Positions 1,556 through 6,543 of a stretch of DNA of 64,000 nt are shown one piece after another (positions within the stretch are counted from its first letter, which is position 1; the number at the start of each line of letters is the position of its first letter). The DNA comes from Natrononativus amylolyticus. GTDB lineage: Archaea; Halobacteriota; Halobacteria; Halobacteriales; Natrialbaceae. Made by a program: the position numbers and the translations under genes. The stretch is from NCBI RefSeq assembly GCF_024362525.1, contig NZ_CP101458.1:2666001-2730000 (forward strand). The letters are read 5' to 3'. The notes below the pieces were generated by a model. That model saw only the letters and a list, made by a program, of their open reading frames with translations, ran no database searches and was not told the DNA's origin.

Positions 1556-3610
1556 ATGACACCATACAAGACACATACGACGACGCGACGAACGATTCTC
1601 CAGGCGGTCGCGGCCGGGACCGCAGTCAGCGTCGTAACAAAGGCGGTAGCGGCACAGGAGGCGCTCGACGGAGAGATCGAACTCGGCGGTCGACGAAGCG
1701 CCTGGGTCGGCCAGGCGCCCGACGAGATCGCCGACGAACGGAACCCGACGCTGCGTCTGACCGAGGGTCAGGAGTACACGCTTACCTGGGAGAACCTCGA
1801 CGGTGACGGGCACAACGTCGTCATCGAGGACGAGGACGGCGAGAACTTCCTCAGCACGGACATCGTCTCCGGCGTCGGTACGACCCAGACCGTCGAGTTC
1901 ACCGCGGAGGCCGGAATGGCCGAGTACTACTGTGCGCCCCACCCCTCGTCGATGCGCGGCGAGATCGAACTCGTCGACGGCGAGGAGGCCGAGGAGGAAG
2001 AGCCCGTCGAGGAAGAACCCGACGAGAACGGCGTACTCGTTCCCGAAGGGCCGACCGTCGGCCTCGAGACCGTCGCCGACGGACTGGCGGCGCCGGTCGA
2101 CCTCCAGGCCGCCCCCGGGGACGACGAGAACCGGTACGTCGTCGACCAGGTCGGGCAGATCTACGTCCACGGCCCGGACGGACTCGAGGAGGAGCCGTTT
2201 CTCGACCTCGAAGACCGGATGGTCGAACTCGATCCGGACTTCGACGAGCGCGGGCTCCTCGGACTCGCCTTCCACCCGGAGTTCGAGGAGAACCGCCGGT
2301 TTTTCGTCCACTACAGCGCGCCGGCACCGGATGGGGCAGAGATCGACGAGGGCGAAGACGGAGACGAGGAGGACGAACCTGAGGAAGAGGTCGACGAAGA
2401 AGAACCGGAAGAGGAGAATGACGACGAAACCGACGAGGACGAGGACGAACTCGACCACATCGGCACTATCGCAGAGTTCGAGGCGGACGACGACGGCACG
2501 TCGGCGGACCCGGGCTCCGAGCGGATCATCCTCGAGATACCGCACCCGCAGTTCAACCACAACGCCGGTCCGCTCGCGTTCGGCCCGGACGACGGCTATC
2601 TGTACGTGACAACCGGCGACGGTGGCGCGGGCGGTGACGTCGGCCCGGGGCACGTCGACGACTGGTACGACGAGATCGAGGGCGGGAACGGACAGGACAC
2701 GAGCGAGAACCTCCTCGGCGGAATCCTTCGGATCGACGTCGACGAGAACGGTGAGGGCGACCAGCCGTACGCGATTCCGGACGACAATCCGCTGGTCGGC
2801 TACGACGACTACTTGCCGGAGTACTACGCCTGGGGGATGCGCAACCCCTGGGGAATGTCCTTCACCAGGGACGGTGAACTGCTGGCGGCAGACGTCGGCC
2901 AGGCGCTGTTCGAGATCATCAACCACGTCGAGCGAGGCGGCAACTACGGCTGGAACGTCAGGGAAGGGACCCACTGTTTCGACCCCGAAACGCCGGAGGA
3001 GCCCCCCGAAGACTGCCCGCAGGCTGTCGACGAGGACGTTCCCGAACCTCGCGGCGGCGAACCGTTACTCGACCCGGTCGTCGAGTACCCGCAGTTCTAC
3101 GGCGATCAGGAGATCGGGATCGCCGTCATCGGCGGCTACCTCTACGAGACCGGGACGGTTCCGGCCCTCGAGGGGAACTACGTCTTCGGCGACTGGAGCC
3201 TCTCGTTCGACGATCCCTCCGGGTCGCTGTTCGTCGCCTACCCGCCCGAGGGGTGGCCCGACGAAGACGACCTCGAGGAGACGTTCGCCGATCAGGTCCC
3301 CGAGGGTGCCGACGAGGAGATCTTCCAGGAGGACCGCTGGGAGGGGCTCTGGCCGGTGGAGCAACTGCAGGTCGAGGGCGACGTCGCGGAGAACGGCCGA
3401 CTCGAGCGGTTCGTGCTGGGCTTCGGCCGGGACGCCGACGACGAACTCTACGTGTTGACGACCGAGGAGGGCGGTCCGACCGGCGAGACCGGACAGGTCC
3501 ACCGGATCGTCGACGCGAACGGAGAGTCAGACGCGGACGAGGACGAGGAGGTCGAAGACGGCGAAGACGGCGAAGACGACGGTGAAGAGACGACGGAAGA
3601 CGAGTCCTGA
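1556..3610 (+). CDS. Exported cupredoxin / PQQ-dependent sugar dehydrogenase fusion
   Basis: A 684-residue exported oxidoreductase. Residues 1-33 form a Tat signal (RR at 11-12, cleavage near AVAAQ). Residues about 36-140 are a blue-copper (cupredoxin) domain with the four type 1 copper ligands in order: His86, Cys126, His129, Met133. After an acidic linker, residues about 165-660 match soluble aldose sugar / glucose-sorbosone dehydrogenases, six-bladed propellers that use PQQ: 'ERGLLGLAFHPEF' (231-243), 'FNHNAGPLAFGPDDGYLYVTTGD' region with His335 as the likely catalytic base. An acidic block (about 264-299) is inserted inside the propeller, and the C-terminus is acidic too. The copper domain probably takes electrons from the quinone. 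It lies near, and converges on, a second quinoprotein gene. Confidence 0.85.
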   Translation: MTPYKTHTTTRRTILQAVAAGTAVSVVTKAVAAQEALDGEIELGGRRSAWVGQAPDEIADERNPTLRLTEGQEYTLTWENLDGDGHNVVIEDEDGENFLSTDIVSGVGTTQTVEFTAEAGMAEYYCAPHPSSMRGEIELVDGEEAEEEEPVEEEPDENGVLVPEGPTVGLETVADGLAAPVDLQAAPGDDENRYVVDQVGQIYVHGPDGLEEEPFLDLEDRMVELDPDFDERGLLGLAFHPEFEENRRFFVHYSAPAPDGAEIDEGEDGDEEDEPEEEVDEEEPEEENDDETDEDEDELDHIGTIAEFEADDDGTSADPGSERIILEIPHPQFNHNAGPLAFGPDDGYLYVTTGDGGAGGDVGPGHVDDWYDEIEGGNGQDTSENLLGGILRIDVDENGEGDQPYAIPDDNPLVGYDDYLPEYYAWGMRNPWGMSFTRDGELLAADVGQALFEIINHVERGGNYGWNVREGTHCFDPETPEEPPEDCPQAVDEDVPEPRGGEPLLDPVVEYPQFYGDQEIGIAVIGGYLYETGTVPALEGNYVFGDWSLSFDDPSGSLFVAYPPEGWPDEDDLEETFADQVPEGADEEIFQEDRWEGLWPVEQLQVEGDVAENGRLERFVLGFGRDADDELYVLTTEEGGPTGETGQVHRIVDANGESDADEDEEVEDGEDGEDDGEETTEDES

Positions 3611-3712: not shown

Positions 3713-5602
3713 TCAGGTGCTCAGCGAGTAAACGGTGACGACGTTACCCGCGAGATTCTCGTCGAGGGCGCCGCCGCGCCGTCCGCCCGCAGTGATCGCC
3801 ACGTAGGTTTTCTCCTCGTAGGGATCGTGCCAGATGATCGGGTCGCCGTCGACGCCGACGCCGATGTCGTCGACCCAGACGCGCTCGCCGGTTTCGGTCG
3901 CGTACGCGACGAACTCGCCCTCCGGCGTGCCGGCGAACGTCAGGCCGGTCGGCGTCGAGACGCAGCCGCCCGCGGTCGAGGTTTCGATGTCGAGCCAGTC
4001 CCGCCACTTGATCCGTCCCGTGAGCGGATCGAGGCCGACGATAACGCTGTGGTAGCCGTTCCACTCGTCGGGCCGTGGATCGTCCATCAGCGCCGGGTCT
4101 TCCTCTTCGTCCTCATCGTCATCCTCGTCGTCTTCGACCTCCTCTTCCTCCTCGTCTCCCGGCTCGTCGTCGTCGTTCTCATCCTCATCGGCGCCGAGTT
4201 CCTCCTCTTCTTCCTCCTCCTCTTCGGGCTCGTCCGCGACCGGTTCGGCCCGGATCGTGTCCATGCCGATGTAGTTCTCGCCGGCTTCGTACTCGACTTC
4301 GTACCACGAGAACTTCATGGGCTGGTTCGTCCCCTTGACGACGTAGGTCTGGGTGTGTGGATCGTAGGCGCTCGCCTGCGGATTCGTCCCGCCTTGCAGT
4401 TCCGGCATCACCCACGGTGCCGACTCGAGGTCGTCCTGGGGCGGAAGCGCCCACATGTTCAGGTGCTGGACGTGCTCTTCGCTGCGCTGGTAGAGCTGGC
4501 CGGTCTCCATGTTCACCGTGTAGATCCATCCGGTCTTCCCGGCCCAGACCGCCATGCTGGTCTGTTCGCCGTCGATCTCCCCCTGGATCACCATGGGCGG
4601 GTTCGAGGAGTCGTAGTCCCACCAGTCGTGGGGCGCGTCCTGGAAGTGCCAGGCGTACTCGCCGGTGTTCGCGTCGACGCCGACTTTGCCCGCGGAGTAG
4701 GGGTTAAAGCCCGGCCGGACGGTTCCGTACCACGGGCCCGGGTTCGCCGAGGGGATGACTATCTGTTCGGTCCGCGGATCGAGCGCGCCCGCCGGCCAGG
4801 CGGTCGCGCCGCCGTGTCGCCAGGAGTCGCCGACCCACTCGTGCTCGGGCGTCATATTGACGCGCCACTCGATGTTGCCCTCGAGGTCGATCGCGTCGTA
4901 GAACCCGCTCACCCCGTACTCGCCGCCGAAGCTGCCCTTGCTGAGTCGCCCGTTGTAGATGATCGGCGGGAACGAGGAAGTCGTTCCGACGGCGCGCTCC
5001 CACTGGAGTTCCTCGTGCATGACGTTCTCGGCGGGTTCGCCGCGGTAGGCTGCCGCCCCGTTGAAGTACCACTCCTCCTCGCCCGTGTACCGATCGAGCG
5101 CCTGGACGCCCAGGTCGAGGGTACTCGTGTAGATTCGATCGCCGAGGACCGAGACGCCGCGTTCGGCCGACGGGCTCTCCTCGGAGGTGCCGACGTACGG
5201 CTCGTAGACGTGCGACCACAGGAACTCGCCGGTCCGGGCGTTGAGGGCGTGGACGTGGTCCGGTCCGAACGTGATGTACATCACCGGCGGGTCGCCCTGG
5301 ATAATGATCGGCGAGCCCTGGAAGTCGTTCTGCGGAGTCAGGTGCTCGAACTGATACTCCACTTCCAGCTGGCCGACGTTGTCGGGCGTGATCTCCTCGC
5401 CGACGTAGTGGCGCTGGTTCTCGTAGTTGTTACCGTACATCAACCAGTTCTCGGTCGTCGAACCGGAGGCGAGCAAGTCGTCCTCGGTCACGTCGACCTC
5501 GGGGATCTGGTCGGTGTCGTGCTGTTCGATATCGGACTCGCCCGGCTTTTCGTGCCACGGCGCGTCTTCCGGTAGCTCTTCTAAGTGTGATTCGAACGTC
5601 AT
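3713..5602 (-). CDS. PQQ-dependent (quinoprotein) alcohol dehydrogenase without its own signal peptide
   Basis: A 629-residue eight-bladed propeller of the methanol/alcohol dehydrogenase family. Expected metal and catalytic residues are all visible: Glu228 (in GGEYGV), Asn287 (in SANPGPW), Asp329 (in HDWWDYD), plus Asp331 two residues later, the extra acid seen in lanthanide-dependent XoxF/ExaF/PedH enzymes. The tryptophan-docking repeat 'GGCVSTPTGLTFAGTPEGEF' is near residue 545. The adjacent Cys-Cys disulfide of bacterial enzymes is absent. An insert of almost only Glu/Asp lies at about 459-505. The N-terminus is acidic, not a signal peptide, although family members work outside the membrane. 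ATG 5602 is preferred over GTG 5611 because a strong Shine-Dalgarno (GAGGTGA) lies 5 bases before it and overlaps the stop of the upstream Tat-exported partner. Confidence 0.88.
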   Translation of the reverse strand: MTFESHLEELPEDAPWHEKPGESDIEQHDTDQIPEVDVTEDDLLASGSTTENWLMYGNNYENQRHYVGEEITPDNVGQLEVEYQFEHLTPQNDFQGSPIIIQGDPPVMYITFGPDHVHALNARTGEFLWSHVYEPYVGTSEESPSAERGVSVLGDRIYTSTLDLGVQALDRYTGEEEWYFNGAAAYRGEPAENVMHEELQWERAVGTTSSFPPIIYNGRLSKGSFGGEYGVSGFYDAIDLEGNIEWRVNMTPEHEWVGDSWRHGGATAWPAGALDPRTEQIVIPSANPGPWYGTVRPGFNPYSAGKVGVDANTGEYAWHFQDAPHDWWDYDSSNPPMVIQGEIDGEQTSMAVWAGKTGWIYTVNMETGQLYQRSEEHVQHLNMWALPPQDDLESAPWVMPELQGGTNPQASAYDPHTQTYVVKGTNQPMKFSWYEVEYEAGENYIGMDTIRAEPVADEPEEEEEEEEELGADEDENDDDEPGDEEEEEVEDDEDDDEDEEEDPALMDDPRPDEWNGYHSVIVGLDPLTGRIKWRDWLDIETSTAGGCVSTPTGLTFAGTPEGEFVAYATETGERVWVDDIGVGVDGDPIIWHDPYEEKTYVAITAGGRRGGALDENLAGNVVTVYSLST

Positions 5603-5607
5603 CGGTC

Positions 5608-5614
5608 TCACCTC
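5608..5614 (-). promoter_or_regulatory. Shine-Dalgarno overlapping the upstream stop codon
   Basis: GAGGTGA on the minus strand complements the 3' end of archaeal 16S rRNA (CACCTCC). Its last three bases are the TGA stop of the partner gene, and the ATG of the alcohol dehydrogenase follows after 5 bases. This tight arrangement suggests that both proteins are made in a coupled way. Confidence 0.75.
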
Positions 5615-6543
5615 GCCCCCGCCATGGGAGCACGCTTGTCGTCCGTGATTCGCACGACGTCGTGGAGCAGGAACTCCTGTGCGATGATCATGATCGCCGA
5701 TCCCGCCGTGATCAGCGTCGTCAGGTGTTCGTCGGCGATACTACCCGCGGCCAGGTCCCGCGCTGCCGATCCCAGCAGGTAGTAGCCCCCGAGCATCGAC
5801 TTGATGTCCCAGAGCCCGCGGTCGATCATCTCCGGCGTGACCAGGACCGCACGCTGCCAGAGGAAGTGATCCAACCCGTCGATCCACAGCAGGGACCCCT
5901 CCGCGGCCCGCTGCTGGAGCGGCGCGACGTACTCGTGGACGACGCCGTCGTCGACCGCCTCCGCCGGCGGGTACTCGAGCGTCGGCATCCACCAGGACAG
6001 CTGTTCGCGTGCGTTGACGATGTTGGCGACCAGCGCCGCCTGCTCCTGGCCGCTGAAGCCGAGTTCGCCGAGCGTCGCCGGGAGCGAGTCGATGTGCAGG
6101 AGCTGTCGGGTCGTCGTCTCGATGTGCTCGGGCGTAAACGCCGGCAACGTCTCCTCGGCGCTCGAGAAGAAGCCCACCGCCGCCAGGTGGTCGTTGATCG
6201 CCCACGCGCCCGTCGTCAGCTCGCGGTAGGCCGACTGTCCCTGCTCGGGGACCCCCATCGCCTGGAGCTGGGGGAGTTGTTCGAAACTCGAGGCGAGCGC
6301 CGACAGCTCGCTGGTGAGCAACGCCTGGTCGAGCGAGCCGGTGAGCCCGGAACGGAGCGACTCGCCCATCTCCGCGAGTCCGGCCGTCGAACCGGTCGAA
6401 ACCTCCGAGCGGAGGTCGCCGAGCGTCGCGCCCGCGACGCCGGCACCGGCGATGACGCCGAGGGCCTTCAGGAACTCGCGCCGGTCCTCGTCGCTCACCT
6501 CCCCGTAGCTGTATCGTTCGTCTGGATTCGTCCCATATGCCAT
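5608..6543 (-). CDS. Tat-exported partner protein of the quinoprotein dehydrogenase, unknown family
   Basis: A 311-residue protein that I do not recognise. It opens with a clear Tat signal: acidic N-terminus, RREFLK at residues 21-26, then a hydrophobic segment (ALGVIAGAGVAGATLG). The rest looks helical, with many Leu/Ala-rich stretches, and ends with a hydrophobic helix (about residues 272-295) that could be a membrane anchor or a buried helix. No cysteine pairs or cofactor motifs are visible. It is the first gene of a two-gene unit with the signal-less alcohol dehydrogenase, whose ribosome binding site overlaps this stop codon. By context it is a second subunit, export carrier or membrane anchor; this is inference. 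Confidence 0.75.
   Translation of the reverse strand: MAYGTNPDERYSYGEVSDEDRREFLKALGVIAGAGVAGATLGDLRSEVSTGSTAGLAEMGESLRSGLTGSLDQALLTSELSALASSFEQLPQLQAMGVPEQGQSAYRELTTGAWAINDHLAAVGFFSSAEETLPAFTPEHIETTTRQLLHIDSLPATLGELGFSGQEQAALVANIVNAREQLSWWMPTLEYPPAEAVDDGVVHEYVAPLQQRAAEGSLLWIDGLDHFLWQRAVLVTPEMIDRGLWDIKSMLGGYYLLGSAARDLAAGSIADEHLTTLITAGSAIMIIAQEFLLHDVVRITDDKRAPMAGAR

Follow-up and report, generated by a model that had tools for sequence, protein, structure and literature searches.

How does a quinoprotein dehydrogenase that carries no signal of its own come to work outside the cell membrane, and does it do so at all? This question is raised by two adjacent genes of Natrononativus amylolyticus, which we studied in a window of 64,000 nucleotides (contig NZ_CP101458.1, positions 2,666,001 to 2,730,000; coordinates below are those of the window). 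An earlier note on this DNA had suggested that the dehydrogenase folds and takes up its cofactor in the cytoplasm and is then exported jointly with the Tat-signal protein encoded before it.

A Tat signal on one of two coupled gene products

The upstream gene (5608-6543, minus strand) encodes a Tat-signal protein of 311 aa, here called the partner, of an all-helical, otherwise undescribed family that is restricted to Halobacteria as far as scanned. It is followed by the gene of a methanol/ethanol-type quinoprotein dehydrogenase (PQQ beta-propeller, 629 aa; 3713-5602, minus strand) without a signal peptide; the span 5602-6543 comprises the partner gene and the coupling site, and the dehydrogenase gene continues to 3713. 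The dehydrogenase matches PF01011 with 164.2 bits, above the gathering score of 26.7. At the subfamily level it scored 277.4 bits against TIGR03075 (methanol/ethanol PQQ dehydrogenases), under the curated cut-off of 480.05, and second best was TIGR04528 (acido-empty-quinoprotein group A) with 198.3 bits, under the cut-off of 650 bits. The best solved relative is the ethanol dehydrogenase PedH (6zcw, E 3e-42).

The N-terminus of the dehydrogenase, MTFESHLEELPEDAPWHEKPGESDIEQ, is acidic and lacks any hydrophobic segment, the highest 15-residue Kyte-Doolittle mean within residues 1-60 being 0.14. The sole nearby alternative start, a GTG three codons upstream, adds no signal. This agrees with the earlier description of an acidic, signal-less N-terminus, and a signal missed at another start codon, which had been named as a point that would speak against joint export, is excluded by the sequence. 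Among 124 related pairs, alternative starts included, no believable signal was found on the dehydrogenase. In most loci the partner's own stop forms an in-frame boundary, which leaves no room for a hidden signal. One formal regular-expression match, on the dehydrogenase of locus L231, came from a reading that starts far upstream of the real start and was discarded as spurious.

The partner, on the other hand, does carry the Tat signal that had been assigned to it. It begins with MAYGTNPDERYSYGEVSDEDRREFLKALGVIAGAGVAGATLGDL, which contains the canonical motif DRREFLK; the twin arginine R21-R22 (6478-6483, minus strand) is kept in 21 of 21 partners of clade A, the clade of the window. Residues 27-42, ALGVIAGAGVAGATLG (6418-6465, minus strand), form an uncharged h-region with a 15-residue Kyte-Doolittle mean of 1.81. 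The partner passes the NCBIfam model TAT_signal_seq (21.1 bits, cut-off 16.7), and TatC is present, with three matches. It is very improbable that this N-terminus does not function as a signal. Its score is below the Pfam TAT_signal cut-off (14.7 versus 22.7 bits) and no clear AxA cleavage site was seen after the h-region, but the canonical RREFLK, the uncharged 16-residue core and the NCBIfam score argue for function, as do the retention of the core and RR throughout the partners of clades A, D and E and the lack of any Cys in 49 of 49 such partners.

The two genes meet at GGCGAGGTGAGACCGATG on the minus strand. The Shine-Dalgarno sequence GAGGTGA (5608-5614, minus strand) has the partner's TGA stop codon (5610-5608) as its final three bases, and five bases (5607-5603) separate it from the ATG of the dehydrogenase (5602-5600), which confirms the arrangement reported earlier. 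GAGGTGA complements the 16S 3' end of this genome, TGCGGCTGGATCACCTCC, where the matching stretch GGATCACCTCC is present. In 120 of the 124 related pairs the dehydrogenase starts between -10 and +30 nt from the partner stop. A Shine-Dalgarno match of at least 5 nt was found in 90 of these 120, compared to a background of 7% at random positions. The Shine-Dalgarno overlaps the partner stop in 55 related pairs. Because of these frequencies, the arrangement is not due to chance.

Linkage of the two genes and loss of the signal

The earlier note had also asked if the two genes always occur together, and we found that they do. At the family level, the same 54 of 125 genomes hold partner and dehydrogenase, and of 391 genomes searched with profiles at the class level, the same 70 hold both genes. 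Every one of the 78 family dehydrogenases is immediately preceded by the partner on the same strand. Across 84,980 species scanned there were 48 partner loci, all of them haloarchaeal. The trees of the two proteins show the same clades, and therefore no re-pairing took place. Judged by gene content, partner and dehydrogenase form an obligate pair, on which literature searches returned no paper. Decaying pairs were also seen: at L135 (G045) the dehydrogenase is split into two frames beside an intact partner, at L107 (G073) the partner is split and the dehydrogenase intact, and at L137 (G066) only remnants of both genes are left.

The partner's Tat signal is present in 49-50 of 124 pairs, namely in clades A, D and E, and absent in clades B and C1+C2. 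On a midpoint-rooted tree, the signal appears to be ancestral in the partner and to have been lost twice. The L086 partner is intermediate, with RR retained and a weak core. A second pair in the genome of N. amylolyticus itself (L084; G000, contig C2, 143607-146249) belongs to clade B, and its partner reads NHHRFQKALGVSSTETTDRP at the place of the window partner's DRREFLKALGVIAGAGVAGA, a signal decayed in place. No believable signal was found on either protein in 71-72 of 121 intact pairs, and for this reason many members of the dehydrogenase family look cytoplasmic. The earlier assumption that the family as a whole acts beyond the membrane was therefore too broad.

Since most relatives in the family tree have no signal, the conservation of the pair has a cause other than export. 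The partner could serve chiefly as a structural subunit or in electron transfer, or it could be a membrane anchor whose Tat signal stays uncleaved; the pair would then be a fixed complex for which export is secondary. We regard this as a serious possibility, if somewhat short of probable: the linkage is 100% even after loss of the Tat signal, an AxA site is not obvious, and W, H and D positions conserved in the partner lie far from the signal, but neither a cofactor motif nor a family could be recognised in the partner. Apart from the Tat signal, it has no relatives in Pfam, NCBIfam or the PDB. Its AlphaFold2 model is of high confidence (pLDDT 89.6) and all-helical, and it gave no Foldseek fold match at E<=0.001; the fold relatives proposed by VIA-align (best Z 5.8) were designed or common helical bundles and were set aside as uninformative. 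A structural role of this kind is compatible with piggyback export, but the reason for the linkage is then catalysis. Because it does not exclude the explanation favoured below, our confidences in the different readings exceed one in sum.

For complex prediction, 55 pairs with both genes in one frame were read as a single chain. Stops were read as Ser in these fused chains, which is a computing device and no claim of readthrough. The paired fused AlphaFold2 model reached a pTM of 0.62, about the value for two independently placed domains, and contained no confident interface.

Cysteine content and the probable route of export

To compare lineages with and without the partner signal, the tree was used to count the residues gained in Tat-minus and Tat-plus branches, and the 20 residues were ranked. 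Cys ranked first among the residues gained in Tat-minus branches in both proteins. In the partner, 16 Cys gains fell on Tat-minus branches and none on Tat-plus branches (p=6e-5), and in the dehydrogenase the gains were 39 and 21, respectively (ratio 2.5, p=5e-4). Accordingly, Cys-containing partners make up 0 of 49 Tat-plus and 54 of 72 Tat-minus cases. Seventeen genomes hold Tat-plus as well as Tat-minus pairs, and in 16 of them non-vicinal Cys are more numerous in the Tat-minus dehydrogenase; genome-wide composition is therefore not the cause. The environment of the dehydrogenase thus appears to follow the signal of its partner, because Cys was gained in lineages that lost this signal. As predicted by piggyback export, the Cys signature tracks the partner signal, which lends co-export in the clade of the window indirect support.

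Cys content by itself is a weak compartment marker. When calibrated on neighbouring genes, it came to 0.45 Cys per 100 aa in Tat proteins and 0.77 in other soluble proteins, but the Cys-free fractions of the two groups were equal. As there were only two independent signal losses, clade-specific drift is a less likely but conceivable source of the pattern. Glycosylation sequons gave no consistent separation of the clades.

For the clade of the window, we favour with good confidence co-export of the dehydrogenase by its Tat-bearing partner as the best explanation. It rests on features read from the sequence, namely a predicted Tat signal on one protein only, translational coupling, obligate linkage and a concordant change after signal loss. 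Partner and dehydrogenase would act as an obligate two-protein unit, in which the dehydrogenase would be made directly behind the partner through translational coupling, fold in the cytoplasm and bind the partner. The Tat signal of the partner would then target the pair to the Tat translocase for co-translocation, which would bring both proteins to the outer side of the membrane. In this location the dehydrogenase would oxidise an alcohol or aldehyde, and electrons would probably pass to a Tat-exported cupredoxin, for example the putative acceptor encoded at 1556-3610. Any site of PQQ and metal insertion is presumptive. Sister clades that lost the signal probably retain their pair within the cell. 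The joint Tat export proposed earlier was thus upheld in part: the obligate pair, the signal-less cargo and the Cys gains that track the partner signal speak for it, whereas the physical complex is a presumed one.

Alternatively, the dehydrogenase could be cytoplasmic in all clades, with the partner alone exported and the linkage reflecting regulation or a trans-membrane relay. We consider this quite unlikely. A constant compartment would leave the Cys gains in the dehydrogenase, which occur where the partner loses its signal, unexpected; moreover, the closest solved relatives are periplasmic alcohol/methanol dehydrogenases, and an exported cupredoxin adjoins the dehydrogenase. Such a location would nevertheless fit a dehydrogenase that never bears a signal, the lack of a signal on either protein in clades B, C1 and C2, the aldehyde ferredoxin oxidoreductase and 2Fe-2S ferredoxin genes that C2 pairs can adjoin, and the fused model without an interface.

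Metal site, neighbouring genes and known systems

Alignment with 6zcw, together with column counts, placed the predicted metal ligands of the dehydrogenase at 4610-4921 (minus strand). E228 (4919-4921), N287 (4742-4744), D329 (4616-4618) and D331 (4610-4612) align with the metal-site pattern of PedH. The extra Asp two residues past the catalytic Asp (D-x-D, D329/D331) is found in 121 of 121 aligned sequences, and E228 is conserved outside clade D. D-x-D is a signature used for lanthanide dependence (PMC11996626, PMC5487730). The haloarchaeal dehydrogenase family is therefore predicted to have lanthanide-type metal ligands. Tentatively, and with confidence a little under even, we suggest that a conserved quinoprotein unit changed compartment at least twice through the signal loss of one subunit, that the partner signal would be a switch for the whole enzyme, and that C2 would be a cytoplasmic lanthanide-type alcohol dehydrogenase.

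The quinoprotein ethanol and methanol dehydrogenases PedH, XoxF and MxaF have signal peptides of their own. The window dehydrogenase shares with them the propeller, the E-N-D-x-D ligands and the Trp and Lys that are invariant in the PQQ pocket. Unlike them, it has no signal and no vicinal Cys-Cys, and it stays under the TIGR03075 cut-off. Clades C1, C2 and E have this vicinal Cys-Cys near the cofactor, a feature of methanol dehydrogenase, whereas clades A, B and D lack it. No match to PqqC was found in 125 family genomes, although control genomes were silent too and its absence is not proven, and a profile search for PqqE gave nothing above the cut-off in this genome. On these grounds, PQQ may be supplied from outside, and the earlier idea of cofactor loading inside is doubtful. 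In the TIGR04528 group PQQ synthesis is likewise not seen, but the window protein scores far under the cut-off of that group.

The dehydrogenase also has a highly acidic insertion in its propeller (4085-4237, minus strand; approximately residues 456-506), about 50 residues in a row of which most are acidic. Mean dehydrogenase length is 648 aa in clade A, compared to 569-578 aa in clades B, C1, C2 and E, so that the added length of about 70-80 aa is typical of clade A.

Convergent to the pair lies a gene (1556-3610, plus strand) for a cupredoxin that, in clade A, is fused to a glucose/sorbosone dehydrogenase (PF00127, 2.7e-9; PF07995, 6.7e-24) and is Tat-exported by its own signal. Its product is a candidate extracellular electron acceptor or companion enzyme. 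Relatives of this gene lie near most pairs of clades A, B and C1, and the one in Natrinema thermotolerans is annotated as plastocyanin. In clades B and C1, a gene with a Tat signal and a cupredoxin domain follows the pair directly; at L084, a Tat-signal DUF7282-cupredoxin gene begins 5 nt downstream. The carrier role could thus have moved to this cupredoxin in B and C1, with the pairs exported via a different subunit, and clade E loci that have both the partner Tat signal and a downstream Tat-cupredoxin could be the intermediate state. We think this unlikely, as partner and dehydrogenase of B and C1 are Cys-enriched like those of C2, which has neither a partner Tat signal nor a downstream Tat-cupredoxin, and the cupredoxin can be exported alone.

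Possibly, the clade C2 pairs are a cytoplasmic quinoprotein. An example C2 neighbourhood holds genes for an aldehyde ferredoxin oxidoreductase, a CDC48 ATPase and the ferredoxin Fer. Across C2 loci, a 2Fe-2S ferredoxin gene was seen near many pairs, and aldehyde ferredoxin oxidoreductase and CDC48 ATPase genes near some. At L119, L122, L125 and L242, all of clade C2, no Tat signal was seen on the partner, the dehydrogenase or the next gene.

Tat heterodimers with one signal are a known precedent (PMC10924467). Like the pair studied here, the hitchhiker pair described there has one twin-arginine subunit and one without, adjacent genes and a redox enzyme. Unlike in that pair, a non-catalytic protein from an undescribed family bears the signal here and a quinoprotein is the cargo; moreover, sister clades lost the signal with the pair intact, and the complex is a putative one. 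For haloarchaeal NarGH, joint Tat export of a two-subunit redox enzyme was inferred from one signal (PMC8301774); in NarGH the signal is on the catalytic subunit, whereas here the catalytic protein has none. New are the family of signal-bearing helpers and the apparent compartment switch, Tat hitchhiking itself being known. If co-export is correct, this would be an archaeal Tat piggyback system for a quinoprotein with a natural experiment built in, as the pair persists without the signal in sister lineages and in another copy within one genome. Whether the signal of one subunit sets the address of the whole enzyme can thus be tested directly. The haloarchaeal family also has predicted lanthanide-type ligands, and searches of its genomes did not find the usual PQQ-synthesis genes, which puts the source of the cofactor in question.

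Some other genes recur around the pairs. Some C1 pairs are preceded by genes for a molybdopterin oxidoreductase and an aldehyde ferredoxin oxidoreductase (L094, 6947-12192), which suggests an alcohol-to-acid pathway. A sodium:calcium antiporter gene recurs by pairs of clades A, B, C1 and C2 (L064, L241, L242 and about 20 other loci), and its product perhaps supplies metal to the dehydrogenase. Genes of an NMT1/THI5-like ABC transporter recur by pairs of clades C1, C2 and D (L088, L099, L122, L127 and L136).
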